DNA of 64,000 nt from Homoserinibacter sp. YIM 151385 (lineage in GTDB: Bacteria > Actinomycetota > Actinomycetes > Actinomycetales > Microbacteriaceae): assembly GCF_027912415.1 (NCBI RefSeq), contig NZ_CP115175.1, positions 2,108,001 to 2,172,000 on the forward strand, read 5' to 3'. The notes beneath the pieces are model-generated. The model made no database searches and was not told the DNA's origin. It saw only the letters and a program-made list of their open reading frames with translations. A program made the position numbers and the translations under genes. How positions within the stretch are numbered: position 1 is the stretch's first letter; the number at the start of each line of letters is the position of its first letter. Below are positions 48,714-63,738 of this stretch, one piece after another.

Positions 48714-51700
48714 GTGGGGACGGCAATCCGTCCGCGGGGTCGGGCCCGCGGACTGCGCAACGGGGTGCTCGCGAATCGACGCGAGTGGGGTGAGCCCGGC
48801 GCGTCGTATTTCACGCGCCTCGCGCGCGCGATCGCCATGGTGCTCGTGGTGGTCGTCGGCGGCTTCAGCCTCGCGCTCGTGCCCACGGGCGCCGCGAACG
48901 CCGTCGTCGTCCAGTGGGGCCAGAACGACGGCCAGGACCCGAGCTACGAGATCGACGTCAACGGCGACTTCCTGATGGCCGGCAACGGCGTCCTCGCCTG
49001 CGACTCGATCGGCAACCAGGCCGGCTACGGCACGTGCGCGCAGCTGCACTCCGCGAACAACCCGACCGGCAACCAGAACGCGAACGTCAACGACGCGTTC
49101 AAGATGGTCAACTCGAACACCGTCACCGGCTTCACCACGAACTCGTCGAGCGCGAACCTCACGATCCCGCAGGGCGCGACGGTCGTGAAGGCGTTCCTCA
49201 ACTGGTCGGCGAACACGGGCACCTACTCCGGCACGACCTCGGCCTTCTGCGGCGCGAGCGGGTTCGGCGCGGCCACCCTCCCCGCGGGCAGCGCGACCGG
49301 CTACCAGACGCGCGCGATCCAGTTCAAGGTGGGCGGCGGCTCGATCCAGTCGTACAGCCCGTACCAGGTGCTCGAGGATGCGACGACGCAGTCGCAGGCC
49401 CGGTACTACTCGGCGACGGCGGATGTCACGAGCGCCTTCCAGAACGCGACGACGGGCAGTGCGCTCACCCTGAGCGCCGGCAACATCTGGGCGCCGACCG
49501 GCACCGGATGCTACGCCGGCTGGTCGGCCACCGTCGTGTACGACTTCGGCACCTATGTGAACGGCAACGCCGCCTCGACCCCGCACAAGGTCGTCTACTA
49601 CGAGGGCCATGTCCGTCAGGGCGCTCAGGACACCCCGCTGACGGTCGACTTCAACGGCTTCACCGCGGTCGACACCGGCACGCGTGCGGGGTTCTCGCTC
49701 TACGAGGGCGACCGCGGCATCACCGGCGACACCGCCTCGTACCGGCGCGGCGCCGACACGGCGTACACCGAGATCCCGAACTCGGCGGGCGCGACCGGCA
49801 ACTTCGGCATCGGCCGCGCGGCGGGCTCGGTCCGCTACACGCAGACGCAGGACACGAGCACCTTCACGAACCAGAGCGTCGACGTCACGACGACGACGCT
49901 GTCGCGCGTCGTCGCGGGCGACTCGAACGTGCGGCTCCAGCTCGCGACGAGTGGCGACTCCTACCTGCTCACGAACTCGATCCTGTCGGTGCCGACGGCG
50001 GGCCTCAAGGTCGAGAAGACCTTCAACGGCACGGACGACATCCAGTACCGGACCGCCAACGAGCCGGCGACCTTCACGATCCGCCTCACGAACGTCGGGG
50101 CCGGCGTGCTCCGCAACATTCAGGTCGCCGACGATCAGGCGAGCTGCGCCCGGACGCTGCCGTCCGGGACGACGCTCGCGGCTCAGCAGTCGTACGAGTA
50201 CACCTGCACGGCGGCGGCCGGCTCGGCGACCGGGTACACCTCGACGGCGACGGCGACCGCGAGGACGGTCGTCGGCGACTATCTCGCGCAGGGCAGCGAC
50301 TCGACGCGCGTCGGCCTGACCGCCATCGGCCTGACGAAGACGAGCTCGCTCGCCGCGGGCGCGACCGGCAGGGTCGGCGAGACCGTCAACTACACCTTCG
50401 TCGTGACGAACCGGGGCGACGGGCCCCTCACGGGCGTCGCGATCACCGACCCCATGACCTCGAGCGGCATGTCCGCGATCCAGATCACCTGGCCCGGCGC
50501 CTCGGGGGCGCTCGCCGCCGGCCAGTCGGCGACGGGCACCGCGAGCTACGTGCTCAAGCAGTCGGATGTGAACAGCGGCTCCGTCGTGAACACCGCCTCC
50601 GCGACGGGCACCGACTCGGACGGCGGCACCAGGCCGACCGCGACCGCGAGCCGGACGCAGCCGATCACCTCGGCCCCCGGCCTCTCGATCGCGAAGACCG
50701 GCGCGCTCGCCTCGGGCGCGACGGGCGTCGTCGGCGACCGCATCAACTACGGCTTCACCGTCCAGAACACCGGCAACGTGACGCTCACGGGCGTCGCCGT
50801 CACCGACCGCCTCGCCGGCCTCCAGGGCCTCGCCTACGGCACCTGGCCGAGCGGCACCACGGGCACCCTGCAGCCCGGGCAGACCGTGACCGCCTCCGCG
50901 TTCTACCTGATCCAGCAGGCGGATGTCGACGCGGGCAGCGTGAAGAACCTCGCCTCGGTCTCCGGCCGCACCCCGACGAACACGACGACGACCGCGAGCT
51001 CGAGCGAGGTGACCGTCAACACGACGGCCGCGGCGCCCGCGCTCACGACGACGAAGACCGCGAGCCCGGCGACGGGCGCGGCCGTCGGCAGCACCGTCAC
51101 CTACACGATCACCGGCCGGAACTCGGGCAACGTGACGCTCACGAACGTCGCGGTCACGGATCCGATGACGGCGAACGGCCTCACCGTCACGAACACGCAG
51201 TGGCCCGCGAACCAGACGGCGGGCACCCTCGCGCCCGGCCAGCAGGTCGTCGTGACGGCGACCTACGTCGTGAAGCAGTCCGATGTCGACGCGGGCGCGA
51301 TCCGCAACACGGCGACGACGAGCGGGCGCACGCCGGCTGGCGCGACCATCACGGCCGGCTCCGGGCAGGTCGTGACGCCGACGGCGGCCGCCGCCCCCCG
51401 CATCCAGCTCACGAAGACGGGCACGCTCGCCGCGGGGGCGACGGGTCGCGCCGGCGACGCCGTGAGCTACAGCTTCCGCATCGAGAACACCGGCAACGTG
51501 ACCCTCACGGGCGTCGGCGCGAGCGACCCGATGAGCGGGCTCTCGGCGATCGCGTTCCCGACCGCCGCCTCCGGCTGGCAGTCGGGCACGGTCGGCACGC
51601 TCCGCCCCGGCGACGTCGTGACCGGCACGGCCTCCTACGCGCTCAAGCAGTCGGATGTGGATGCCGGCTCCGTCATCAACACCGCCACCGCGACCGGCAA

Positions 51701-54700
51701 GCCGCCGACGGGTGCCAACGTGACCGGGTCGGGCACGAGCACGCTGCCGATCGCGCCCACCGGCACGCTCACGGTGAAGAAGACCGGTGCCGTCGTCGGC
51801 TCGAACGCGGGCGTCGGCGGCACGGTCCGCTTCGACTTCGAGATCGAGAACACGGGCAACGTGACGCTCTCGCAGATCGCGCTCACGGACTCCCTCCCCG
51901 GCCTGTCGACCCCGAGCCTCACCTGGCAGGGCGGCACGGCGGGCACCCTCGCGCCCGGCGGGAAGGCGACCGGCTCCGCGACGTACACGATCCGCCAGAC
52001 GGATGTGGACCGCGGCACCGTCCTCAACACCGCGACGGTCGTCGGGCGCACCCCCGCGGGCGCCTCCACGCCGACCGCGACCTCCGGGCAGATCAGCGTG
52101 AGCACCGTCACGCGGGCACCCGACATGACGCTCGTGAAGACCGGCACGCGCGCCGGCGGCGCCGCGGGCAACGCGGGCGACGTCGTCAACTACACGTTCA
52201 CGATCGCGAACACCGGCAACACGACGCTCACGGGCGTCGGCGTCACCGACCCGATGACCGCGAACGGCCTCTCGACCCCGACCATCCCGGCCGCCTCCTG
52301 GGCCTCCGGCACGGTCGGCACGCTCCGCCCCGGCGACTCCGTCGTCGCGACCGCGAACTACACGATCAAGCAGAGCGACGTGAACGCGGGCTCGATCTCG
52401 AACACCGCGACGGCGACCTCGACGACCTCGTCGGGGGCGACCCTCACCCGCACCTCGACGGCGAACACCCCGACGGTCGCGCGCAGCGCCGTCATCGGCC
52501 TCACGCAGACCGGCGCCCTGCCCCAGGGCTCGACCGGCAAGGCGGGCGACGTCGTCACCTGGAGCTTCGTCGCGACGAACAACGGCACCACGACGCTCTC
52601 CGGCGTCGTCATCCAGCCGACGCTGCAGGGCATCTCGACGGTGAGCTACGGCACCTGGCCGAGCGGCACCGCCGGCACCCTCCAGCCCGGGCAGTCGGTG
52701 ACGGCGACCGCGACCTATGTCGTCACGCAGTCGGATGTCGACAGCGGCTCCGTCGTCGACCCGGCGACCGTGCGCGGCACGCCGCCGGCGGGCGTGACCC
52801 CGAGCCCGGCGACCGCCTCGGCGCCCGCGACCGTGCCCCTCACGCCCCGCGGCTCGCTCTCGATCGTGAAGTCGGGCGCGCTGCGCACCGCCGGACAGGG
52901 CGGCCTCGGCAATCCGGTCGACTACAGCTTCGTCGTGACGAACACGGGCAACCTGACGCTCACGGAGGTCGTGGTCGCCGATCCGAAGACCGCGAACGGG
53001 ATGACGGCGCCGACCGTCCCCGCGAACGGCTGGCCCTCGGGCACCGCCGGCACGCTCCGCCCCGGCGACAGCGTCACGGCCACCGCGAGCTACCCGATCC
53101 GCCAGGCCGACCTCGACGCCGGCGAGGTGCGCAACCAGGCCCGGGTCGAGGGCCGCACGCAGTCCGGCGCGACGATCCGCTCCGACTCCAACGAGGTCGT
53201 CACCGGCACGAACGCCGCCAATCCGCGCCTCACCACGACGAAGACGGCGAGCACGGCGGGGCCCGTCCAGCTCGGCCAGCAGATCACCTTCACGATCGTC
53301 GGCCGCAACACCGGCAACGTGACGCTCTCGAGCGTCGACGTCGTCGACTCCCTCGCCGGCCAGGGCTTCGCCGTCACGAGCACGACCTGGTCGGCCGGTC
53401 AGGCGAGTGCGGGCACGCTCGCCCCGGATGCGACGGTCACGGTGGTCGGCGCCTACACGGTCCGCCAGGCGGATGTCGATGCGGGCGCCGTGACGAACAC
53501 GGGCACGACGCGCGGCTCCTTCGGCACCGCGAACGTGCAGGGCGCCGCCACGATCGCCGTCCCGACCCAGCAGGCCGCGCCCTCGCTCGAGCTCGTCAAG
53601 ACGGGGACGCGCGTCCAGACCGGGACCCCCGCCGTCGGCGACCGGATCGACTACCGCTTCACGCTGCGCAACACCGGCAACGTGACGCTCACGACCGCGC
53701 AGATCGCCGACCCGATGACCGATCTCCAGGACTTCGCGTACGTCGGCGCCAACCGCACCCTCGCGCCGAACCAGACACTCGAGGCGACCGCGTTCTACAT
53801 CGTGAAGCAGAGCGACATCGACGCGGGCGCGGTCGTCAACACGGCGAGCGCCTCGGCGGCGCCCCCGACGGGCGCGCGCATCGCGACGTCGACGCCGCAG
53901 ACCGTGCCGCTCGCCTCGAACGGCGCGCTGGAGTTCGACAAGGCCTCGGCCTACCGGCCCGGCACCGGCACGGGGCCGGGCACGGTCGGCAGCGTCATCC
54001 GCTACACCTTCACCGCCACGAACACCGGCAACGTGACCCTGACGGGCGTCGGCGTCACCGATCCGCGCGCGGGCCTCGGCACGATCGCCTACAGCGGCTG
54101 GCAGACCCCCAACACGCTCCGGGTGGGCGAGACCGTGACCGGCGTCGCCGACTACACCGTGACGCAGGCGGACGTGAACGCCGGCGTCGTCGCGAACACG
54201 GCGACGGCCAGCGGGCGCACCCCGGGCGGCACGCCCGTCTCGGCGACCGACACCGAGCGCCGCGACACCGTGACGCCCGCCCCGGCCGTCACGACGACGA
54301 AGACGGCGGCCGTCTCCGGCGCGGGCGGCGTCGGCGACACCATCACCTACACGATCGTCGCCGAGAACACCGGGAACACGACGCTGACGGGCGTGACGGT
54401 CGCGGACCCGATGTTCACCGCATCCCAGCTCAGCTACGGCACCTGGCCGTCCGGCGTCGCCGGGACCCTGCAGCCCTCGCAGAGCGTGACGGCGACGGCG
54501 GTCAAGATCATCACGCAGGCGGACGTCGACGCGGGCACCGTGCAGAACACCGCCACGACGACCGCCCGGACCCCGTCCGGCGGCTCGACGGAGGGCTCCT
54601 CAGGGCCGATCACGACGGCCGTCCAGCCGGCGCGACCCTCGATCGACCTCGTGCAGACCGGCGCGCTCCCGAGCGGATCGCCGGGGCGCGCGGGCGAGAC

Positions 54701-57700
54701 GGTCACCTTCACGTTCACGCTGACGAACGACGGCAACGTGACGCTGTCGGGGACGCAGGAGGTGACGCGCTCGCTGCCCGGCATCTCGCCGATCGCCTAC
54801 GGCGCCTGGCCGTCCGGCACGGTCGGGCAGCTCCGACCGGGCGACACCGTCACCGGCACGGCGACCTACACCCTGACGCAGGCGGACGTCGACTCGGGCG
54901 CGATCCAGGACGTCGCCTCCGTCACCGGCACCTCGGCGCGCGGGAACGCGAGCGACACCGACACGGCGACCGTGCCGATCAACCGCGGTCCCGCGATCGT
55001 GCTCGAGAAGACCGGCCAGCTCACGGAGTCCGGCGAGGGCGGGGTCGGGAGCACGATCACCTACCGCTTCACGCTGACGAACACGGGCACCGTGACGCTC
55101 CGCGACGCCTTCGTCGCGGACCCGCTGCTCGCCGCCGCCGACGTCGCCGTGCAGTACGGCACCTGGGCGAGCGGCACCGCGGGCACGCTGCGCCCGGGGG
55201 ACGTCGTGACCGGCGCCGCCGTCTACACGATCACGCAGGACGACTTCGACCGCGGCCGCGTGACGAACACGGCGAGCGTCGACGCGAGCGGCCCCGCGGG
55301 CACGCCGAACGCGACCTCCACGACGCGCCCGGTCGTCGTCGCGACCGGCGACACCCGCCCCATGATCGAGATCGGCAAGACCGCGGTCGTCTCGGGCGCG
55401 CGCGGCGTCGGCGACACGATCACCTACACCTTCACGGTCGTCAACACGGGCAACGTGAACCTCACGGACGTCGAGGTCAGCGACATCGAGCTCGAGGGCC
55501 TCGGGCCCGTGACGTACAGCCCGAGCTGGCCCGGCGGCCCGGATGCGCCGCGCTCGCTCGGCCCGAACGGCGGCACCGGCACGGCCACCGCGACGTACAC
55601 GATCACCCAGGAGGACGTCGACCGCGGCATCGTGACGAACCGCGCCCTCGTCAGCGCGCAGACCGTCGGCGGCGAGGTCGTCGACGACGTCTCCCCGCAG
55701 GTCATCACGACCCTGCAGGCGAAGGACCCGGTCGTCTCGGTCCTGAAGCAGGGCGTCGTCCGAGGCGGCGGCACCGCGGCGCTGGGCTCGATCGTCGACT
55801 ACACGATCACCGTGTCGAACGGCGGGAACCAGACCCTCTCGAACGTGACGCTGAGCGACCCGCTGCTCGCGGACCTCTCACGCACGACCTTCGGCACCAT
55901 CCGTCCCGGTGACGCCCCCCTGACCGCGACCGGCACCTACCGGATCACGCAGGCGGATGTGGACGCCGGCTCCGTCCTCAACGTCGCGACCGCGCGCGCG
56001 GACACGCCGAACGGCGGCGCGCCCGTCACCGGCCAGGGCGCCGACACCCGTCCCGTGCCGTCGACCTCGAGCATCGGGCTCGTGAAGTCGGCGGACTTCG
56101 TCGAGGGCTCCGGCGGGGTCGGCTCGATCGTGCGCTACACCTTCGTCGCCGAGAACACCGGGACGACGACGCTCCGCGTCGTGCAGGTGCAGGACGAGCT
56201 GCCGTCGCTCTCCGAGCTCGAGTACGGCGCATGGCCGACCGGCACCGCCGGCGTCCTGCCGCCCGGCGAGACCGTCACCGCCACCGCCACCTACGAGGTC
56301 CGGCAGGCGGACGTCGACGCGGGCGCCATCGAGAACACGGCGCGCGTCGGCGCGACGACCCCCGGCGGCACGCGCCTCGACGAGCCGTCGAACACGCTCA
56401 CCACCGGGCTCGCGCCCGCCGACCCGGAGCTGACCGTCACGAAGACGGCGGACGCGCCCGAGCGACCCGCCCTGGGCGACGTCATCCGGTTCCGCATCTC
56501 GGTCGCGAACACCGGCAACATCACCGTCGACGGCGTCGAGCTCGCGGACCGCCTGCAGGGCCTGGGCGAGCTCAGCCTCACCTGGCCGGGCGCCGAGGGC
56601 GTCCTCGCGCCGGGCGAGGAGCTCGTCGCGACCGCCGAGTACGTCGTCACGCAGGCGGACATCGACGCGGGCTCCGTCTCGAACGACGCCGTCGCCACCG
56701 GCGTCGACCGCCGCGACGGCGACGAGGTGACGGGGGAGGGCTCCGTCCGCGTCGAGACCCAGACGCGCCGCGCGACCATCCAGGTCGTCGACAGCGGCGC
56801 GCTCGCGCCCGCCGCCACCGGCCGCGCCGGCGACGAGACCATCTGGACCTACGTCGTCGAGAACACCGGCAACGTCACGCTCGAGGGCGTCACGGTGACG
56901 GAGTCCGCGCTCGCGATCACGGGCGGCTACCGCTACGGCGCATGGCCCGACGCCGACCGGCCTGGCCGCCTCCTCCCCGGCCAGCGGGTGACGGTCCGCG
57001 CGACCCACCTGCTCACCCAGGCTGAGGCCGACGCCGGCGTCGTGCGCAGCACGGTCACGACGGCGGGCTCCCCCGCCTCGGGTCCCGACGCGACCGACGA
57101 CGACCGCGCCGAGCTCCCGATCGACATCGAGCCCGAGCTCACGGCCGTGAAGTCCGGCAGCTACATCAGCGGCGCCGGCGAGCTGGGATCGACCATCCGA
57201 TACCGGCTCGAGATCACGAACACCGGCAACGTCACGCTGTACCGCGGCACGCTCGTGGACCCGATGGAGGGTCTCCGCGACCTCGTCATCCAGTGGCCGG
57301 ACCCCGAGCGGGTCGGCTACGTCCCGGTCGGCGCGACCGTCGTCGGGACCGCGCTCTACGACCTCCAGCCGAAGGACCTCGACGAGGGCCGGATCGAGAA
57401 CACCGCCTCCGTGGGCGCCTTCACCTCGCCCACGCCGGGCGAGGGGGTCGAGACCGGGAGCGACTCGAACACGGTCGTCATCGTGACCGAGCAGGCGGCC
57501 TCCCGCATCCAGACGACCGTCCAGGGCGCCGCGCGCGGGGATGCCGGCCGGGGCGACATCATCGACTGGGAGATCCGTCTCGAGAACACGGGCAACGTGA
57601 CCGTGACGGATGCCGAGCTCGACTGGGGCGGGTTCCCGCTCGAGGACGTCCGCACCACCTGGCCGGGGACGCCCGGCAGCCTCGCGGCGGGAGCGGTCCT

Positions 57701-60700
57701 GATCGTCCGCGGCACCTCCCTCGTCACGCAGGCCGACGTCGACGCCGGCTCGGTCGTGCTCGCGGCGACCGGCACGGGCGCTGCCGTCCGCGGCACCGGC
57801 CCCGCGCCGTCGACCGCGGCCGGCACCGTGCCCACCGTCGGCTCCTCGCCGACCCTCGTGATCGAGAAGGTCGCGCGGGCGGACGGCGCGAGCGAGCAGG
57901 GCGACCTCGTCACCTGGGAGTACACGCTCACCAACGAGGGCAACGTGACGCTCACGGGCGTCACCCTCGCCGACCAGCTGCCCATGGTCGACGGCGTGGC
58001 CTACACCTGGCCGGCCGGGCAGCCGGCCGGGCAGCTCGCCCCGGGCGCGACCGTCACCGGCACGGCGCAGTACCGCCTGACGCAGGCCGATGTCGACCGC
58101 GGGAGCGTGCGCAGCGCGGTCGTCGGCCGCGGCACGCCGCCGCGCGGCGCGACCCTCGTGGTCCAGGACGCGGACGGCGTCACGATCGCGGCCCGTCCCG
58201 CGGCGACGGTCGTCAAGGAGGGCACGAGCGCCGGCAGCGGCGAGCTGGGCTCGCTCGTCGACTACGAGTTCGCGGTCGAGAACACCGGCAACGTGACGCT
58301 CACGCTCGTCGACCTCGAGGACCAGCTCGTCGGCGTCACGGCGCCCGACATGCAGTGGCCCGGCACCCCCGGCACCCTCGAGCCCGGCGCCCGCCTCACG
58401 GCGACCGCCGAGTACCGCGTGACGCAGGCCGACCTCGACCGCGGCTACATCGCGAACACCGCCGTCGCGCGGGGCAAGCCGCCGGTCGGCGACCTCATGG
58501 AGTGGTCGACGAGCGAGGTGCGCACGACCGTCGCCGCGGCGCGCCCCGCGATCGCCGTCTCGAAGGCCTCGACACCTGCCGGCGGCGCGACCCTCGGCCA
58601 GACGATCTCCTACCGGATCGCGGTGCAGAACACGGGCAACGTCACGGTCGGCGACATCGACGTGCGCGACGTCCTGCCCGGACGCACCGACCTCGTGACC
58701 ACCTGGCCCGACGGCGTGACCGACGAGACCCTGCGCCCCGGCCAGACGCTGTACGTCGACACCACCTACCGCGTCACGCAGGCGGACGTGGATGCCGGCG
58801 AGGTCGTGAACACGGTCGACGCGACCGCGGTGGGCGTCCGCGCGGCGCCCGGCGGCGACGCGACGGCGGAGGGCTCCGACACGGTCGTGACGAGCGTCGT
58901 CGGCCAGACGGCGTCCATCGCCGTCACCGACCGCGGCACCCTCGCGCCCGGTGCGACCGGGCGTGCGGGCGATGCCCTCGTCTGGACCTACATCGTCCGC
59001 AACACCGGCACGACGACCCTCACGGGTCTCGAGATCACCGAGCGGCTCCCGCTGTCGGGCGAGCTCGAGTACAGCGCCTGGCCCGACCCCGCGAGGCCGT
59101 TCCGCCTCGCGCCGGGCACCGAGGTGACGGTCACCGCGCGCACGATCCTCACGCAGGCGCAGGCCGATGCGGGCGAGGCGATCAGCGCGGTCGGCGTCGT
59201 CGGCACCCCGCCGCGCGGCGACGACGTCGACGACGAGGCGACCGCGCGCGTCGAGATCACGCCGCAGCGCGCGCTCGACGTCGTCAAGACCGGCGCCTAC
59301 GCCGCCGGCGGTCGGGGCCGCGTCGGCGACGAGGTCGACTACCGCCTCGAGGTGACGAACACCGGCAACGTGTCGCTCTACGGCGGCCGCCTCGTCGACC
59401 CCATGCCGCACCTCGGCCCGCTCACGGTCGTCTGGCCGGACCCGGCGCGCCCCGGCTACGTGCCGGTCGGCGGCGTCGTCGTCGGCACCGCGCAGTACAC
59501 GATCCAGCCCGAGGACATCGACGCGGGCCAGATCGAGAACAGGGCGCACGTCGCGGGGTACTCCTCGCCGGACCTCACCCCCGCGACCCGCGTCGACGCG
59601 TACTCGGATGAGATCGTCATCCCGACGGTCGAGCCCTCGACGCAGCTCGCCGCCGCCATCCGGGGCGTCCGCTCCGGCACGGGCATCGTCGGCGACACCG
59701 TCGAGTGGACGATCACGGTCCGCAACGACTCCAATGTGACCGTTAGCGCGATGGACGTGGATCGCGGCCTCGCCCTCACGGACGAGTCCGTCACCTGGCA
59801 GGGCGGCATCCCCGGCACCCTCGCGGCGGGCGCGACCGTCACCTACCGCGGCACGACGACCATCACCCAGGCGGACGTCGACCGCGGCAGCGTGCCCAAC
59901 CGCGTCGTCGCCACGGGCGTCCCCGCGCGCGGACCCGACTCGGTCACGAGCAACACGGCCGAGACGAGCGTCCCGACGCGCGCCGCCGCGCCCGCGATCT
60001 CGGTCCGCGCCTCCGGTGCCGTCACGAGCGGCGACGGCCGCGAGGGCTCGATCGTCACCTTCACCTACCTCGTGAAGAACGAGGGCAACGTGACCCTCGA
60101 CCCGACGACGGTCGAGGATGCGACGGCCGGCGTTGGCAGCCCGGTGTACCCGGGCGGCACGCCGCCGCGCCTCGCGCCGGGAGCCGAGGCGACCATCACC
60201 GCGACCTACACGGTCACGCAGGCCGACGTCGACGCCGGCTCCGTGTCGAGCCTCGTCACCGCGACCGGCACGCCCCCGGTGGGCGCCGACGCGACCGCGA
60301 GCGCCCCCGCCACGGTGCCGCTCGCCGGATCGAGTTCGCTCCGCGTCGAGAAGACGGGCGCGCTCCGCGTCGCCGGGGCGGACCGCGTCGGGGACACGAT
60401 CGACTACCGGATCGAGATGTTCAACGAGGGCACGCTCACGCTCCGCGAGGTCGAGCTCACGGACGCGCTCGACGGCCTCACCGTCCCGCGCATCACCTGG
60501 CCGGAGGGCGTCGAGGGCGTCATCCCGCCGGGCCGCTCCGCGGTCGCGACCGCCTCGTACCAGATCGCGCAGAAGGACGTCGACGCGGGCGAGGTGCTCA
60601 ACACCGCGACCGTCGCCGCGACGGACGCGCGCGGCGACGACCAGCTCGCCGTCTCGCCGCAGTCGCGGATCGCCACGGCCGCGGCGGCGCCCGCGTACAC

Positions 60701-62972
60701 GGTCGCGAAGTCCGGCTCGGTCGTCGCGCCCGGCACCGGCGTCGCCGGCGACCAGGTGCGCTGGACCTTCCGGATCGAGAACACCGGCAACGTGTCGCTC
60801 TCCGCGATCGACCTCACCGAGCAGCTGGCGGGCGCGAGCAAGCCGACCGTCGTCTACCCGGCCGGCGCCGCATCCCTCGCCCCGCGCGCGGTCGCGACCG
60901 CGACCGCGACGTACCGCCTCACGCAGACGGACGTGGACCGCGGCTCGGTCGTGAACTGGGTGAGCGCCACCGCGCGCACCCCGGGCGGCGCGACCGTGAC
61001 GCAGGAGTCGAACCGCTACCGGCTCGTGCCCGCCGCCGCGGCCCCCGCGATCGCGGTCTCGCAGAGGGCGACCACCGACCCGCTGTTCGCCGGCAAGCTC
61101 GGCGACCCGGTCGAGTTCGAGTTCGTGCTCCGCAACACCGGCAACGTGACGCTCACGGACCCGGCGTACCGCGCGAGCGTCGTCGGCCTCGAGGACCCGA
61201 CCCTCACCTGGTCGGGCGTCGAGGGCCAGCTCGACCCGAACGGCACGCTCACCGTGCGCGGCACCCACCGCGTCACGCAGGCCGAGGTGGATGCCGGACG
61301 CGTCGTCAACGAGCTGCGCGGCACCGGCCGCGCGCCGGGCGGCGGGCTCGTCACCGGCGGTCCCACGACCGAGACCGTGCCGCTCGACGCGCCCGTGAGC
61401 CGCATCGGCCTCACCAAGACGGCCGAGCCGGCGACGGGCGCGAAGGCGGGCGACCGCGTGACCTTCACGCTCACGCTCGCCAACACGGGCGAGGCGACCG
61501 TGCGGGATGCCCGCATGGCCGACACGATGGAGGACCTCGGCGCCCTCGAGATGGGCCGGTGGCCGACCGACGCCGAGGGCGTGCTCGCGCCCGGGCAGGA
61601 TGTGACGGCGACCGCGGTCTACCGGGTCACCCAGGCGGATATCGATCGCGGCAGCATCGCGAACTCGGCGACGGCGGACGCGAGCGGCTTCGGCGGCACG
61701 CCCGTGACGCAGGCCGCGGCCTCCATCACGGTCCCGCTCGCGACCCGGGCTCCGGCGATCACGCTGACGAAGACGCAGACGCTCCCGAGCGGCTCGACGG
61801 GCAAGGTGGGCGACCGCGTCAGCTACGCCTTCACGGTGAAGAACACCGGCACCGTCACGCTCGACGACGTCCGCGTCGCGGACGAGCAGCAGCGCCTGAG
61901 CGGCATCGTCGTCGACTGGGGCACGGGCGCCGAGGGCACCCTGGCCCCGGGCCGGGAGGTCCGCGGGACCGCGACGTACGTCCTCACGCAGGACGACCTC
62001 GACGCCGGCACCGTCGCCTCCGACGCGGTCGTCACCTCCACGGCACGCGGCGGCGGGGCCCCGCAGGATGCGGCGAGCGGCTCGGTCGACCTCGTCCAGC
62101 GTGCGGCCGTCGAGCTCGAGAAGACGCGGAGCCACACCGCGCCGGCACGCGAGGGCACGGTCATCGCCTACCGGCTCGTCGCCGAGAACACGGGCAACGT
62201 GACGCTCACGGGCGTCGAGCTGGCCGACCCGCTGCCCGGGCTCGACGGCCTCCAGGTCACCTGGCCGACCGCCGTCGCGGGCGTCCTCGCCCCGGGCGCT
62301 CGGGTCATCGGCACGGCGACCTACACGGTCACCGCCGCCGACGTCGACGCGGGCAGCATCGCCAACACGGCCTCCGTCACCGGGGCCCCGCCGGCCTCCG
62401 TCGGCGGCACCGTCGGCGACACCGACTCGGCGACCGTCGCGGTGCCGAACCGCCCCGCGATCGGCATCGTCATGTCGGTGAGGATCGCGGACGGCCGGGC
62501 CGGCTTCCCGGGCGACCGCCTCCAGTACACCTACGTCATCACCAACACCGGCGATCGGACGCTGACCGGCGTGCGCGTGGCCGACGACCACCCGCGGCTC
62601 GGGGCGTTCGAGTATCTCGACTGGCCGGGCGAGCTCGGCGTCCTCGCCCCCGGGCAGTCCGTCACGGCGGTCGCGTACTACGCGATCATCGCCGAGGACG
62701 CGGGGAGGATGGTGCCCGGGACCTCGCAGGCGATCGGCTTCGCCGACGGCGGCGCCACCACGGTGACCGACGAGGCGCAGGCGCCGATCGCGCTGCCCGC
62801 GATGCCCGTCGTGCCCGGCCCGGCCGACCCGACGACGCCCACCACGCCGGGCGGGCTCGCGAGCACCGGCACCGACGCCGCCCTCTCAGGGCTCTCGGCG
62901 CTGGCGCTCCTACTCTCTGGACTCGTGATCATCGTCGTCGGCACCCGCCGACGCCGGAAGGAGACTGCATGA
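48714..62972 (+). CDS. Giant wall-anchored surface protein with 35 repeats of about 119 residues
   Basis: 4752 residues. GTG at 48714 is chosen for the GGGGGAAA site before it; the frame is open earlier without signals. A long-type signal peptide ends near ANA (61-63). Residues 64 to about 430 are a non-repeated beta-rich head domain. A divergent repeat (about 430-537) precedes 35 near-canonical repeats (about 538-4690) with core pattern xVGDxVxYTFxVxNTGNVTL, TGVxVTDP, WPxGTAGTLxPGxxVTxTAxYxVTQADVDAGxVxNTA. These look like DUF11/DUF7507-type Ig-like repeats (recalled). The end carries LASTG (4715-4719), a hydrophobic helix and RRRRK: a LAxTG sortase signal. Likely a long fibrous stalk presenting the head domain; ligand unknown. 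Confidence 0.93.
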   Translation: MGTAIRPRGRARGLRNGVLANRREWGEPGASYFTRLARAIAMVLVVVVGGFSLALVPTGAANAVVVQWGQNDGQDPSYEIDVNGDFLMAGNGVLACDSIGNQAGYGTCAQLHSANNPTGNQNANVNDAFKMVNSNTVTGFTTNSSSANLTIPQGATVVKAFLNWSANTGTYSGTTSAFCGASGFGAATLPAGSATGYQTRAIQFKVGGGSIQSYSPYQVLEDATTQSQARYYSATADVTSAFQNATTGSALTLSAGNIWAPTGTGCYAGWSATVVYDFGTYVNGNAASTPHKVVYYEGHVRQGAQDTPLTVDFNGFTAVDTGTRAGFSLYEGDRGITGDTASYRRGADTAYTEIPNSAGATGNFGIGRAAGSVRYTQTQDTSTFTNQSVDVTTTTLSRVVAGDSNVRLQLATSGDSYLLTNSILSVPTAGLKVEKTFNGTDDIQYRTANEPATFTIRLTNVGAGVLRNIQVADDQASCARTLPSGTTLAAQQSYEYTCTAAAGSATGYTSTATATARTVVGDYLAQGSDSTRVGLTAIGLTKTSSLAAGATGRVGETVNYTFVVTNRGDGPLTGVAITDPMTSSGMSAIQITWPGASGALAAGQSATGTASYVLKQSDVNSGSVVNTASATGTDSDGGTRPTATASRTQPITSAPGLSIAKTGALASGATGVVGDRINYGFTVQNTGNVTLTGVAVTDRLAGLQGLAYGTWPSGTTGTLQPGQTVTASAFYLIQQADVDAGSVKNLASVSGRTPTNTTTTASSSEVTVNTTAAAPALTTTKTASPATGAAVGSTVTYTITGRNSGNVTLTNVAVTDPMTANGLTVTNTQWPANQTAGTLAPGQQVVVTATYVVKQSDVDAGAIRNTATTSGRTPAGATITAGSGQVVTPTAAAAPRIQLTKTGTLAAGATGRAGDAVSYSFRIENTGNVTLTGVGASDPMSGLSAIAFPTAASGWQSGTVGTLRPGDVVTGTASYALKQSDVDAGSVINTATATGKPPTGANVTGSGTSTLPIAPTGTLTVKKTGAVVGSNAGVGGTVRFDFEIENTGNVTLSQIALTDSLPGLSTPSLTWQGGTAGTLAPGGKATGSATYTIRQTDVDRGTVLNTATVVGRTPAGASTPTATSGQISVSTVTRAPDMTLVKTGTRAGGAAGNAGDVVNYTFTIANTGNTTLTGVGVTDPMTANGLSTPTIPAASWASGTVGTLRPGDSVVATANYTIKQSDVNAGSISNTATATSTTSSGATLTRTSTANTPTVARSAVIGLTQTGALPQGSTGKAGDVVTWSFVATNNGTTTLSGVVIQPTLQGISTVSYGTWPSGTAGTLQPGQSVTATATYVVTQSDVDSGSVVDPATVRGTPPAGVTPSPATASAPATVPLTPRGSLSIVKSGALRTAGQGGLGNPVDYSFVVTNTGNLTLTEVVVADPKTANGMTAPTVPANGWPSGTAGTLRPGDSVTATASYPIRQADLDAGEVRNQARVEGRTQSGATIRSDSNEVVTGTNAANPRLTTTKTASTAGPVQLGQQITFTIVGRNTGNVTLSSVDVVDSLAGQGFAVTSTTWSAGQASAGTLAPDATVTVVGAYTVRQADVDAGAVTNTGTTRGSFGTANVQGAATIAVPTQQAAPSLELVKTGTRVQTGTPAVGDRIDYRFTLRNTGNVTLTTAQIADPMTDLQDFAYVGANRTLAPNQTLEATAFYIVKQSDIDAGAVVNTASASAAPPTGARIATSTPQTVPLASNGALEFDKASAYRPGTGTGPGTVGSVIRYTFTATNTGNVTLTGVGVTDPRAGLGTIAYSGWQTPNTLRVGETVTGVADYTVTQADVNAGVVANTATASGRTPGGTPVSATDTERRDTVTPAPAVTTTKTAAVSGAGGVGDTITYTIVAENTGNTTLTGVTVADPMFTASQLSYGTWPSGVAGTLQPSQSVTATAVKIITQADVDAGTVQNTATTTARTPSGGSTEGSSGPITTAVQPARPSIDLVQTGALPSGSPGRAGETVTFTFTLTNDGNVTLSGTQEVTRSLPGISPIAYGAWPSGTVGQLRPGDTVTGTATYTLTQADVDSGAIQDVASVTGTSARGNASDTDTATVPINRGPAIVLEKTGQLTESGEGGVGSTITYRFTLTNTGTVTLRDAFVADPLLAAADVAVQYGTWASGTAGTLRPGDVVTGAAVYTITQDDFDRGRVTNTASVDASGPAGTPNATSTTRPVVVATGDTRPMIEIGKTAVVSGARGVGDTITYTFTVVNTGNVNLTDVEVSDIELEGLGPVTYSPSWPGGPDAPRSLGPNGGTGTATATYTITQEDVDRGIVTNRALVSAQTVGGEVVDDVSPQVITTLQAKDPVVSVLKQGVVRGGGTAALGSIVDYTITVSNGGNQTLSNVTLSDPLLADLSRTTFGTIRPGDAPLTATGTYRITQADVDAGSVLNVATARADTPNGGAPVTGQGADTRPVPSTSSIGLVKSADFVEGSGGVGSIVRYTFVAENTGTTTLRVVQVQDELPSLSELEYGAWPTGTAGVLPPGETVTATATYEVRQADVDAGAIENTARVGATTPGGTRLDEPSNTLTTGLAPADPELTVTKTADAPERPALGDVIRFRISVANTGNITVDGVELADRLQGLGELSLTWPGAEGVLAPGEELVATAEYVVTQADIDAGSVSNDAVATGVDRRDGDEVTGEGSVRVETQTRRATIQVVDSGALAPAATGRAGDETIWTYVVENTGNVTLEGVTVTESALAITGGYRYGAWPDADRPGRLLPGQRVTVRATHLLTQAEADAGVVRSTVTTAGSPASGPDATDDDRAELPIDIEPELTAVKSGSYISGAGELGSTIRYRLEITNTGNVTLYRGTLVDPMEGLRDLVIQWPDPERVGYVPVGATVVGTALYDLQPKDLDEGRIENTASVGAFTSPTPGEGVETGSDSNTVVIVTEQAASRIQTTVQGAARGDAGRGDIIDWEIRLENTGNVTVTDAELDWGGFPLEDVRTTWPGTPGSLAAGAVLIVRGTSLVTQADVDAGSVVLAATGTGAAVRGTGPAPSTAAGTVPTVGSSPTLVIEKVARADGASEQGDLVTWEYTLTNEGNVTLTGVTLADQLPMVDGVAYTWPAGQPAGQLAPGATVTGTAQYRLTQADVDRGSVRSAVVGRGTPPRGATLVVQDADGVTIAARPAATVVKEGTSAGSGELGSLVDYEFAVENTGNVTLTLVDLEDQLVGVTAPDMQWPGTPGTLEPGARLTATAEYRVTQADLDRGYIANTAVARGKPPVGDLMEWSTSEVRTTVAAARPAIAVSKASTPAGGATLGQTISYRIAVQNTGNVTVGDIDVRDVLPGRTDLVTTWPDGVTDETLRPGQTLYVDTTYRVTQADVDAGEVVNTVDATAVGVRAAPGGDATAEGSDTVVTSVVGQTASIAVTDRGTLAPGATGRAGDALVWTYIVRNTGTTTLTGLEITERLPLSGELEYSAWPDPARPFRLAPGTEVTVTARTILTQAQADAGEAISAVGVVGTPPRGDDVDDEATARVEITPQRALDVVKTGAYAAGGRGRVGDEVDYRLEVTNTGNVSLYGGRLVDPMPHLGPLTVVWPDPARPGYVPVGGVVVGTAQYTIQPEDIDAGQIENRAHVAGYSSPDLTPATRVDAYSDEIVIPTVEPSTQLAAAIRGVRSGTGIVGDTVEWTITVRNDSNVTVSAMDVDRGLALTDESVTWQGGIPGTLAAGATVTYRGTTTITQADVDRGSVPNRVVATGVPARGPDSVTSNTAETSVPTRAAAPAISVRASGAVTSGDGREGSIVTFTYLVKNEGNVTLDPTTVEDATAGVGSPVYPGGTPPRLAPGAEATITATYTVTQADVDAGSVSSLVTATGTPPVGADATASAPATVPLAGSSSLRVEKTGALRVAGADRVGDTIDYRIEMFNEGTLTLREVELTDALDGLTVPRITWPEGVEGVIPPGRSAVATASYQIAQKDVDAGEVLNTATVAATDARGDDQLAVSPQSRIATAAAAPAYTVAKSGSVVAPGTGVAGDQVRWTFRIENTGNVSLSAIDLTEQLAGASKPTVVYPAGAASLAPRAVATATATYRLTQTDVDRGSVVNWVSATARTPGGATVTQESNRYRLVPAAAAPAIAVSQRATTDPLFAGKLGDPVEFEFVLRNTGNVTLTDPAYRASVVGLEDPTLTWSGVEGQLDPNGTLTVRGTHRVTQAEVDAGRVVNELRGTGRAPGGGLVTGGPTTETVPLDAPVSRIGLTKTAEPATGAKAGDRVTFTLTLANTGEATVRDARMADTMEDLGALEMGRWPTDAEGVLAPGQDVTATAVYRVTQADIDRGSIANSATADASGFGGTPVTQAAASITVPLATRAPAITLTKTQTLPSGSTGKVGDRVSYAFTVKNTGTVTLDDVRVADEQQRLSGIVVDWGTGAEGTLAPGREVRGTATYVLTQDDLDAGTVASDAVVTSTARGGGAPQDAASGSVDLVQRAAVELEKTRSHTAPAREGTVIAYRLVAENTGNVTLTGVELADPLPGLDGLQVTWPTAVAGVLAPGARVIGTATYTVTAADVDAGSIANTASVTGAPPASVGGTVGDTDSATVAVPNRPAIGIVMSVRIADGRAGFPGDRLQYTYVITNTGDRTLTGVRVADDHPRLGAFEYLDWPGELGVLAPGQSVTAVAYYAIIAEDAGRMVPGTSQAIGFADGGATTVTDEAQAPIALPAMPVVPGPADPTTPTTPGGLASTGTDAALSGLSALALLLSGLVIIVVGTRRRRKETA
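50325..62780 (+). repeat. 35 tandem coding repeats with a six-repeat superperiod
   Basis: Repeats 1, 7, 13, 19, 25 and 31 begin at about 50325, 52494, 54642, 56778, 58917 and 61050; successive distances are 2169, 2148, 2136, 2139 and 2133 bases. Repeats six apart share features not shared by neighbours, such as QTGALPxGSxG in 7 and 13 and RPxRLxPG with LTQAxADAG in 19 and 25. This implies growth by copying blocks of six. Confidence 0.75.
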
Positions 62973-63454
62973 TCCCCCGCCGCACCCCGCTCCTCGCCTC
63001 CGCCGCGGCCGCCGGAGCGCTCGCCCTTTCGCTCGCGGGCTGCACCGGCTCCCCCGAGCCCGAGCCCACCCCGAGCGCCTCCGCCGACAAGCCCGCGGGG
63101 GTCACCGACATCGACGACGCGCCCGGCTCGGGGGAGGGCCTCGTGGGTGCGCTGGAGGACCTCGAGATCGCGACCTGCGAGCGTCAGGGCGACAAGTGGT
63201 CGCTCGGCGGCACCGTGACGAACTCGGCGACGAGCACCTCCGACTACCGGATCTACATCTCGCTCCTCGACGCCGCGGGCGACACCCGCGGCCTCACCCA
63301 GATCGACGTCGACGGCGTCGCGGCGGGCGCGAGCGACGACTGGTCCGAGTCGGTCGACATCGCGGAGGACGACCTCAGCTGCGTGCCGCGCGTCGAGCGC
63401 TACGAGGCCGGGGCCGGCGACGACGCCGGCAACGGCGACGGCTCGGACGGCTGA
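62969..63454 (+). CDS. Small lipoprotein coupled to the giant surface protein
   Basis: 161 residues, ATG overlapping the giant gene's stop (ATGA), with an AAGGAGA site inside the end of that gene. Signal peptide with lipobox LAGC (cysteine about residue 25), then a Pro/Glu linker and a small beta-type domain with LEIATCERQGDKWSLGGTVTNSATSTSDYRIYIS (in pieces), resembling FxLYD-like domains. Coupling suggests it is made with, and may assist display of, the surface protein (inference). Confidence 0.8.
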   Translation: MIPRRTPLLASAAAAGALALSLAGCTGSPEPEPTPSASADKPAGVTDIDDAPGSGEGLVGALEDLEIATCERQGDKWSLGGTVTNSATSTSDYRIYISLLDAAGDTRGLTQIDVDGVAAGASDDWSESVDIAEDDLSCVPRVERYEAGAGDDAGNGDGSDG

Positions 63455-63543: not shown

Positions 63544-63612
63544 CCGGGACTCGGAGATCCGGCCCCGTGCGGCCGCCGGAAGCGCCTCCGGGCGCGGATC
63601 TCCGAGTCCCGG
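63544..63612. repeat. Palindromic element, TCGGAG-core family, copy 1
   Basis: CCGGGACTCGGAGATCCG (63544-63561) and its exact complement (63595-63612), 18-base perfect arms with a 33-base loop that holds CCGGA-AGCGCC-TCCGG. With the terminator and copy 2 it accounts for most of the 310-base gap 63455-63764; the rest shows no other structure. Confidence 0.8.
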
Positions 63613-63667
63613 TCCACCGCGGCCGCAAGCCTGGGCGGTCGCGCCCCGCATCCACCCCGCGCCCGTC

Positions 63668-63738
63668 CCGGGACTCGGAGATCCGAGCCTGTGTGGCACC
63701 CGGAAGCGTCGCCGGACCGGGTCTCTCCGAGACGCGGC
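63668..63738. repeat. Palindromic element, TCGGAG-core family, copy 2 (right arm degenerate)
   Basis: The left 18-base arm is an exact direct copy of 63544-63561, 124 bases away, and the identity runs five bases further left. A loop with CCGGAAGCG follows as in copy 1. The right arm near 63717-63738 keeps only CTCTCCGAGAC and no longer pairs perfectly. Confidence 0.7.

Follow-up and report, generated by a model that had tools for sequence, protein, structure and literature searches.

Architecture of the giant stalk gene

The window analyzed here is the whole 64,000-nucleotide stretch of the Homoserinibacter sp. YIM 151385 genome, which consists of a single contig of 2.88 Mb. Positions 48714–62972 of the forward strand translate as a single uninterrupted frame of 4752 residues followed by a stop codon, with no trace of the frameshift that the initial annotation had named as a possible flaw. 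The open frame extends 5′ to 48594, and we infer that translation starts at the GTG at 48714, which has a purine-rich run (GGGGGGAA) a few bases upstream. The features of the locus are as follows.

48714..48902, forward strand: signal-peptide region, residues 1–63, with the GTG start (translation; hydrophobic run to ANA, by eye)
48903..50003, forward strand: head, residues 64–430 (367 residues), uncharacterised and all-β (39-row alignment, AlphaFold2)
49995..50312, forward strand: divergent repeat 1, of gamma type (K11/D48/Q50/S93) and containing two Cys
50322..52469, forward strand: repeats 2–7, each with a complete K-D-N triad
52476..52817, forward strand: repeat 8, triad lost (Q, P, D; W29)
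52842..54608, forward strand: repeats 9–13, triad complete; probable six-domain loss 1 after repeat 11
54630..54974, forward strand: repeat 14, triad lost (Q, R, D)
54978..56732, forward strand: repeats 15–19, triad complete; probable six-domain loss 2 after repeat 19
56766..57110, forward strand: repeat 20, triad lost (D, E, S; W29, Y31)
57129..62780, forward strand: repeats 21–36, wall-proximal; 22, 23, 26, 28, 29, 31, 32, 34, and 36 with a partial triad or none
within 57129..62780, forward strand: repeat 34, K-D-Q50-S93 (gamma)
62856..62969, forward strand: LASTG sorting signal, hydrophobic stretch, and RRRRKETA tail (sequence)
62969..63454, forward strand: lipoprotein gene with LAGC lipobox, FxLYD-like; its start overlaps the stalk stop (ATGA)

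The stalk contains 36 stretches that match the Pfam family DUF7507, spaced by ~118 residues, 35 of which exceed the curated cut-off singly; repeat 1 falls below it (22.3 bits versus 27). All 36 DUF7507 matches of the genome sit in this gene. The LASTG motif begins at residue 4715 (62856–62870), ahead of a hydrophobic stretch and a basic tail. The coordinates, repeat count, and LAxTG anchor motif given in the initial annotation are therefore correct, and the architecture supports its description of a wall-anchored stalk with a distal head. Its statement that the repeats are diverged holds as well: no DNA word of more than 30 bases recurs exactly within the gene, and Tandem Repeats Finder detected no long tandem array in it.

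An AlphaFold2 model of repeats 24–26 (mean pLDDT 94.3) is all-β, with one short helix per domain, in keeping with the compact β-sandwich expected of CLIPPER_2. Foldseek ranks tandem Ig-like domains, those of integrin among them, at the top; the DUF11 crystal structure 9ifr is absent among the 50 best rows. An Ig domain usually measures 4–4.5 nm, which would place the length of 36 repeats at roughly 150 nm. The YIM 151385 protein has the layout of a fibrillar adhesin, with a signal peptide (recognized by eye), a long repeat stalk, and a wall anchor. Since DUF7507 (CLIPPER_2) is a published stalk family, the class to which the protein belongs is already known; judged from its sequence, it is probably a giant fibrillar adhesin of that family, bearing new regularities that are described below.

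A conserved head domain with no confident match to a known family

The head could be aligned in 39 rows with 35 invariant columns, and the AlphaFold2 model computed from this alignment (mean pLDDT 90.7, pTM 0.92) is all-β with two four-residue helices. Searches of Pfam, NCBIfam, and the PDB by sequence revealed no relative of the YIM 151385 head, in agreement with the initial annotation, which had not recognized its family with certainty. DUF3344 (PF11824) was considered and rejected, as it matches only 3 of the 39 head relatives weakly (best E-value 7.3e-5; likewise 3 of 21 in a smaller scan) and not the YIM 151385 head at E-values up to 1; six distant heads scanned separately gave nothing at E-values up to 0.1. 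Structural comparison yielded weak, mixed matches that were read as probable common arrangements and set aside, both in Foldseek (TM 0.15–0.27) and in VIA, where Kex2/furin, KduI, GH86, and carbohydrate-binding modules were among the matches listed (Z 4.3–6.0). The proposal that the head binds a ligand is plausible for a confidently predicted all-β domain, but no library family and no fold match above Z 6.0 backs it. Its position and conservation make the head the most likely site of ligand binding.

We found the head in 22 of 299 Microbacteriaceae genomes, YIM 151385 included; the genome collection yielded 42 loci, most of them from this family. Head-bearing genera include Schumannella, Microbacterium, Salinibacterium, Frigoribacterium, Curtobacterium, and Arenivirga, with distant heads in Brevibacterium, Micropruina, Actinokineospora, Pseudonocardia, and Actinosynnema; these genera are mostly environmental. 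One Actinokineospora locus (L111) encodes a giant protein of 6297 residues whose head is weakly related and whose stalk, in which only 15 repeats were recognised, is partly different.

Repeat number among relatives

The comparison covered 20 relatives and 20 further loci. Repeat counts exclude genes cut by a contig end (L045, L048, L103), masked (L098), or split between frames (L042, L099, L112), and the gene of a fifth genome of the YIM 151385 genus (G222), which is split over contigs. Exactly 48 repeats, in the same register, are found in 13 complete relatives from several genera, and the three relatives of YIM 151385's own genus with a complete gene have 48 each. L036 has 47 repeats, and the branch formed by Curtobacterium and Frigoribacterium has 39 in five proteins and 38 in one (L102). 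YIM 151385 has 36 and L047 34, while 27, 26, 24, 19, 9, and 2–3 repeats were counted in more distant proteins. In a tree of the heads, the 48-repeat proteins, L036, YIM 151385, and three incomplete proteins form one clade (support 96/92), within which YIM 151385 groups with its own genus (support 98/96).

A pair of loci from a distant branch, L105 and L110, has identical heads and 99.9% DNA identity over 7.2 kb at the head end. Their stalks hold 27 and 24 repeats and differ by an extra copy of a near-identical neighbor (97%) and by a diverged wall-side end. This difference resembles a single-repeat change; either this branch is capable of rapid changes in stalk length, or the member of the pair that was assembled from a metagenome is misassembled. 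Another stalk (L042 and L124) occupies two frames, which hold 34 and 41 repeats, and could represent a present or former stalk of ~75 repeats, the split being a draft error or a true frameshift. A genome of the same order (G465) is likewise rich in DUF7507 stalks: it has open frames of ~2800–4000 residues on several contigs, and its contigs C3, C9, C10, and C11 gave 184 first-look DUF7507 candidates, 15 of which were scored.

A six-domain period and the loss of twelve repeats

Comparison of all repeats within the YIM 151385 stalk revealed raised identity between repeats six apart (0.413, z 5.4, reached in 0 of 1000 shuffles). The same offset is raised in six stalks of 48 or 47 repeats (L031, L033, L035, L036, L037, and L095; z 5.0–7.8, 0 of 1000 shuffles each), with L095 showing higher identity at offset 12 than at 6. 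The peak lies instead at offset 2 or 4 in the 39-repeat L041 and L043 and in the 34-repeat L047. Best single matches between stalks scatter, so that one-to-one orthology could not be assigned from them, and offset averages and block models are needed instead. In four cross-genus pairs of 48-repeat proteins, identity is highest between repeats at the same position, followed by those six and then three positions away. The period and the same-register matches together suggest that the 48 repeats are an old array, which looks like eight sixes (or sixteen threes), and that the YIM 151385 lineage lost twelve.

The twelve repeats were probably lost as two six-domain blocks, after repeats 11 and 19. 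Among models with one or two losses, 6+6 has the best profile score (−208); the next split reaches −278, and losing twelve repeats at once −306 (all profile scores are negative, and only their differences are meaningful). Identity scoring gives identical breakpoints, with 2.88 for 6+6, 2.70 for the next split, 2.67 for one loss of twelve, and at most 1.60 in shuffles. A three-loss model scored slightly better (−202.8 versus −208.2) at the cost of more free parameters and was not preferred. Stalks are not always edited by six, as L036 (47) and L102 (38) are each one repeat short of 48 and 39.

Coordinated loss of the Lys-Asp-Asn triad

The available text of a recent survey (Costa et al. 2025, PMC12617251) reports that DUF7507 (PF24346), renamed CLIPPER_2, is predicted to form a Lys-Asn bond beside an Asp, with Lys72-Asp112-Asn152 as the example, and speaks of both Lys-Asn and Lys-Asp bonds. 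In the sister family DUF11 (CLIPPER, PF01345), which often alternates with DUF7507, the bond was seen in a crystal structure and a variant without it lost stability; some DUF11 domains have no bond (PMC12617251). In a weak alignment (E-value 0.19), the Lys and Asp of our three-repeat profile fall on a Lys and an Asp of the DUF11 crystal chain 9ifr.

We defined the triad by alignment columns 11 (K), 48 (D), and 93 (N). It is complete in 23 of the 36 YIM 151385 repeats and incomplete in 13 (repeats 1, 8, 14, 20, 22, 23, 26, 28, 29, 31, 32, 34, and 36). Across relatives, 973 of 1260 repeats are complete (1284 minus 24 from four remote proteins). The three residues tend to be kept or lost together: across 753 repeats from 21 proteins, the presence of K is associated with that of D (Fisher 1e-46) and that of N (Fisher 1e-31), related repeats being treated as independent in both tests. 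Repeats that have lost the Lys (n = 91) carry a different core, with Trp at column 29 in 51%, compared with 10% of complete repeats (n = 566), and Tyr at column 31 in 51%, compared with 0%.

Some losses are fixed in position. Positions 1, 41, 44, 46, and 48 are incomplete in all 13 of the 48-repeat proteins, and losses fall mainly on the wall side in three proteins of YIM 151385's genus, L033, L036, and YIM 151385. Between positions 3 and 47, loss of both K and N in at least one of the 13 proteins occurs at 8 of 15 positions in phase 2 of 3 and at 2 of 30 others (p 0.0009); W29 (11/15 versus 4/30, p 0.0001) and Y31 (7/15 versus 2/30, p 0.003) favor the same phase. Loss of either K or N over the same positions has no significant phase (9/15 versus 11/30, p 0.12), and a union test of phase preference gave p 0.052. 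These position-level tests are preferred to a phase permutation (p 5e-5), which took shared ancestry as independent and was discarded. On the wall side, the losses lean to every third domain, a preference that hinges on how loss is defined, and shared descent or block duplication could produce such a phase without any function.

Patterned loss is not required for a 48-domain stalk, since six 48-repeat proteins of the Salinibacterium clade are nearly all triad-complete, with only 5, 5, 5, 5, 6, and 7 incomplete repeats. Within the head family, shorter stalks mostly retain the triad, with every repeat complete in L046 (9/9), L047 (34/34), L105 (27/27), and L110 (24/24). It is nearly complete in L045 (12/13), L048 (24/25), L109 (24/26), and L103 (33/36). 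A restriction of triad loss to the long-stalk clade was rejected because of L104 from Brevibacterium, which has only 11 of 19 repeats complete. In a sample of 120 DUF7507 repeats drawn from 32 loci outside the head family, K and N are both retained in 118; this sample comprises 29 of the 30 best-match loci (the thirtieth is YIM 151385 itself) and three lipoprotein-linked stalks, and picking by best match biases it toward canonical repeats.

Purifying selection acts on complete and incomplete repeats alike, being slightly weaker on the latter in three of the seven pairs of relatives compared. Four pairs have nearly equal dN/dS for complete and incomplete repeats (0.081/0.081, 0.078/0.074, 0.092/0.090, and 0.337/0.316), and in the other three it is higher for incomplete repeats (0.193/0.296, 0.120/0.147, and 0.269/0.325). 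The initial annotation had proposed that selection holds the stalk at its length. Evidence for this comes from the relatives, with 13 proteins at 48 repeats and dN/dS of 0.07–0.34, and not from this protein, which lost twelve; nor do all relatives agree in length. Across genera, the 48-repeat relatives are conserved at ~0.53–0.66 in positions 1–13 versus ~0.40–0.56 in positions 20–48.

Read at the level of predicted residues, triad loss is coordinated, partly conserved in position, and accompanied by another, putative W/Y-based core. The predicted locks would be missing from a patterned subset of domains, and the stalk may have stiff and soft parts.

Repeats with a core glutamine

A further type of repeat keeps the Lys and loses the Asn. 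Gln occupies column 50 in 102 of 140 such repeats and in 1 of 983 Lys-bearing repeats that keep the Asn (Fisher 2e-111, with related repeats treated as independent). Column 50 lies two residues after the Asp and holds Leu in 80% of complete repeats, so this position is probably buried. Between about repeat 13 and repeat 37 of the 39-repeat stalks, Lys-kept/Asn-lost and complete repeats largely alternate, with a few of the former lacking the Gln and a few of their partners being incomplete. The 120-repeat outside sample contains no Lys-kept/Asn-lost repeat with Gln, and one complete repeat in it has Gln50.

Gln50 is a candidate for a new Lys partner, i.e., a relocated crosslink, or else a merely hydrogen-bonded substitute. 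No self-formed Lys-Gln bond in an Ig-like domain was found in the mostly open-access literature searched. A mechanical and chemical code of three ordered domain types, namely Lys-Asn-locked domains, unlocked domains with a W/Y core, and domains with a Lys-Gln isopeptide bond that keep Lys and Asp and have lost Asn, would accommodate these observations, yet we regard it as improbable.

A coupled lipoprotein and a class E sortase

The stalk gene is followed by a lipoprotein gene (62969–63454) of 161 residues, which starts within the stalk stop codon. The same four-base overlap is present in 15 of 22 clade loci examined, and two Cys beyond the lipobox are invariant in eight aligned lipoprotein relatives. 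A Pfam scan assigned the lipoprotein to no convincing family; the NCBIfam model FxLYD passed its cut-off in two of seven lipoproteins scanned, that of YIM 151385 not being one of them. Behind the lipoprotein gene (63545–63683), a 15-base word occurs three times, two of them inverted to form a long hairpin, and has no other exact copies in the genome.

The lipoprotein was detected at E-values below 1e-20 in 20 of the 299 genomes of the family, and more weakly in 39 others. In all 20 it is encoded directly behind a DUF7507 frame. The head is also present in 17 of these 20 genomes, lying on another contig in G136 and G222 (as a fragment in the latter), while the stalk has a different N-terminal domain in the remaining three; conversely, 5 of the 22 head genomes have no strong lipoprotein match, one of these being cut by a contig end. 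Because the lipoprotein follows DUF7507 stalks even when they carry other heads, it goes with the stalk and not with the head. The loci L126, L127, and L128 encode shorter DUF7507 stalks (10–14 recognised repeats) with an unrelated N-terminal domain and the same downstream lipoprotein.

One sortase was found in the genome, ~130 kb from the stalk gene, and belongs to class E (NF033747, 230.6 bits versus a cut-off of 160). Class E sortases prefer LAxTG. The genome thus combines such a sortase with an LAxTG-type signal, recognized by sight as LASTG, a hydrophobic stretch, and an RRRR tail; the stalk just misses the LPXTG-type model TIGR01167 (14.5 bits versus a cut-off of 15.9).

Comparison with known stalk systems

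The YIM 151385 protein resembles the CLIPPER_2 stalks in the available text of the survey (PMC12617251) in repeat family, signal peptide, tandem stalk, and sorting motif, and 23 of its 36 repeats have the complete Lys-Asp-Asn triad. The Lys-to-Asn spacing is 80 residues both here and in the published DUF7507 example, whereas the Lys-to-Asp spacing is 35 here and 40 there. Relative to that text, the stalks described here add 36–48 repeats with a six-domain period, a coordinated and partly position-conserved loss of the triad, Lys-kept/Asn-lost repeats with a core Gln, and the coupled lipoprotein (PMC12617251).

Periscope Proteins, as outlined in the available text of two reports (PMC8201768, PMC9704523), likewise use a repeat stalk to present a binding domain away from the wall. 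Length variation is the point of those proteins, whereas here the repeats are diverged and 13 relatives agree on 48. We rejected an assignment of the YIM 151385 protein to this class, as its repeats are ~34–41% identical, depending on offset, and not near-identical; L105 and L110, with 27 and 24 repeats, come nearer to Periscope behavior (PMC8201768, PMC9704523). The search of mostly open-access literature returned no report combining a giant adhesin with Microbacteriaceae, nor DUF11 and LPXTG with Curtobacterium.

A model for the stalk and its alternatives

We favor, as rather likely, a sortase-anchored fibrillar adhesin built of mostly locked domains with a patterned unlocked minority, whose array was shortened by twelve. 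The class E sortase would join the C-terminal LASTG to the wall, and the 36 tandem Ig-like CLIPPER_2 domains would hold the head outward from the cell surface. Most domains would lock themselves by a Lys-Asn isopeptide bond aided by the Asp and become hard to extend, while the mostly wall-proximal minority, which appears to have lost the reacting residues together and to have adopted another core, would unfold under load. An array with a six-domain period would have been cut by twelve domains in the YIM 151385 lineage, probably as two blocks of six. The head would most likely bind the ligand, and the translationally coupled small lipoprotein would belong to the stalk module, perhaps serving assembly or the wall-proximal end. 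The crosslink pattern, the six-domain period, and the coupled lipoprotein gene go beyond what the initial annotation had observed.

The patterned losses might instead reflect relaxed constraint, whereby redundant crosslinks drifted away on the wall side and block duplication spread the losses periodically, with no mechanical design; we consider this a serious, if less likely, alternative. In its favor, the extent of loss varies by genus, with few cases in the Salinibacterium clade, the wall-side repeats are less conserved than the head-side ones, loss of K or N has no significant phase, and three of seven pairs have a somewhat higher dN/dS in incomplete repeats. Drift would also account for positions 46 (0.487) and 48 (0.469), whose conservation is below the mean of 0.510, but positions 41 (0.547) and 44 (0.526) exceed this mean and most of their neighbors, and all four are triad-incomplete in 13 of 13 proteins. 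The replacements, moreover, are specific (W29, Y31, Q50) and not random, and the incomplete repeats of the other four pairs have an equal or lower dN/dS.

Doubtful, in our assessment, is a protein that is no adhesin at all and acts as a spacer, a surface coat, or a cell-cell scaffold, with the head binding a neighboring envelope or an extracellular polymer. The mostly environmental genera and the lack of a known adhesive domain among the matches found would suit such a role, as would the mixed fold matches of the head, which may be mere common arrangements; against it, a conserved distal domain on a stalk predicted to be locked is the standard layout of a fibrillar adhesin. As for the missing twelve repeats, the 48 found in all three complete same-genus relatives could hint at an assembly artefact, and the initial annotation had pointed to collapse or expansion at the repeats. 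With a single-contig genome, no long tandem array, exact words of at most 30 bases, and repeats six apart only ~41% identical in protein, an error driven by the repeats is highly improbable, and a genuine shortening of the adhesin stalk is the preferred reading.

The family offers a natural experiment in the construction of a giant stalk that is probably locked covalently. Two questions can now be put to the test: do bacteria adjust the stiffness of a stalk one domain at a time, and can Gln take the place of Asn as the Lys partner in a self-formed bond? In addition, an unstudied head domain and a coupled lipoprotein become associated with the CLIPPER_2 class of stalks.
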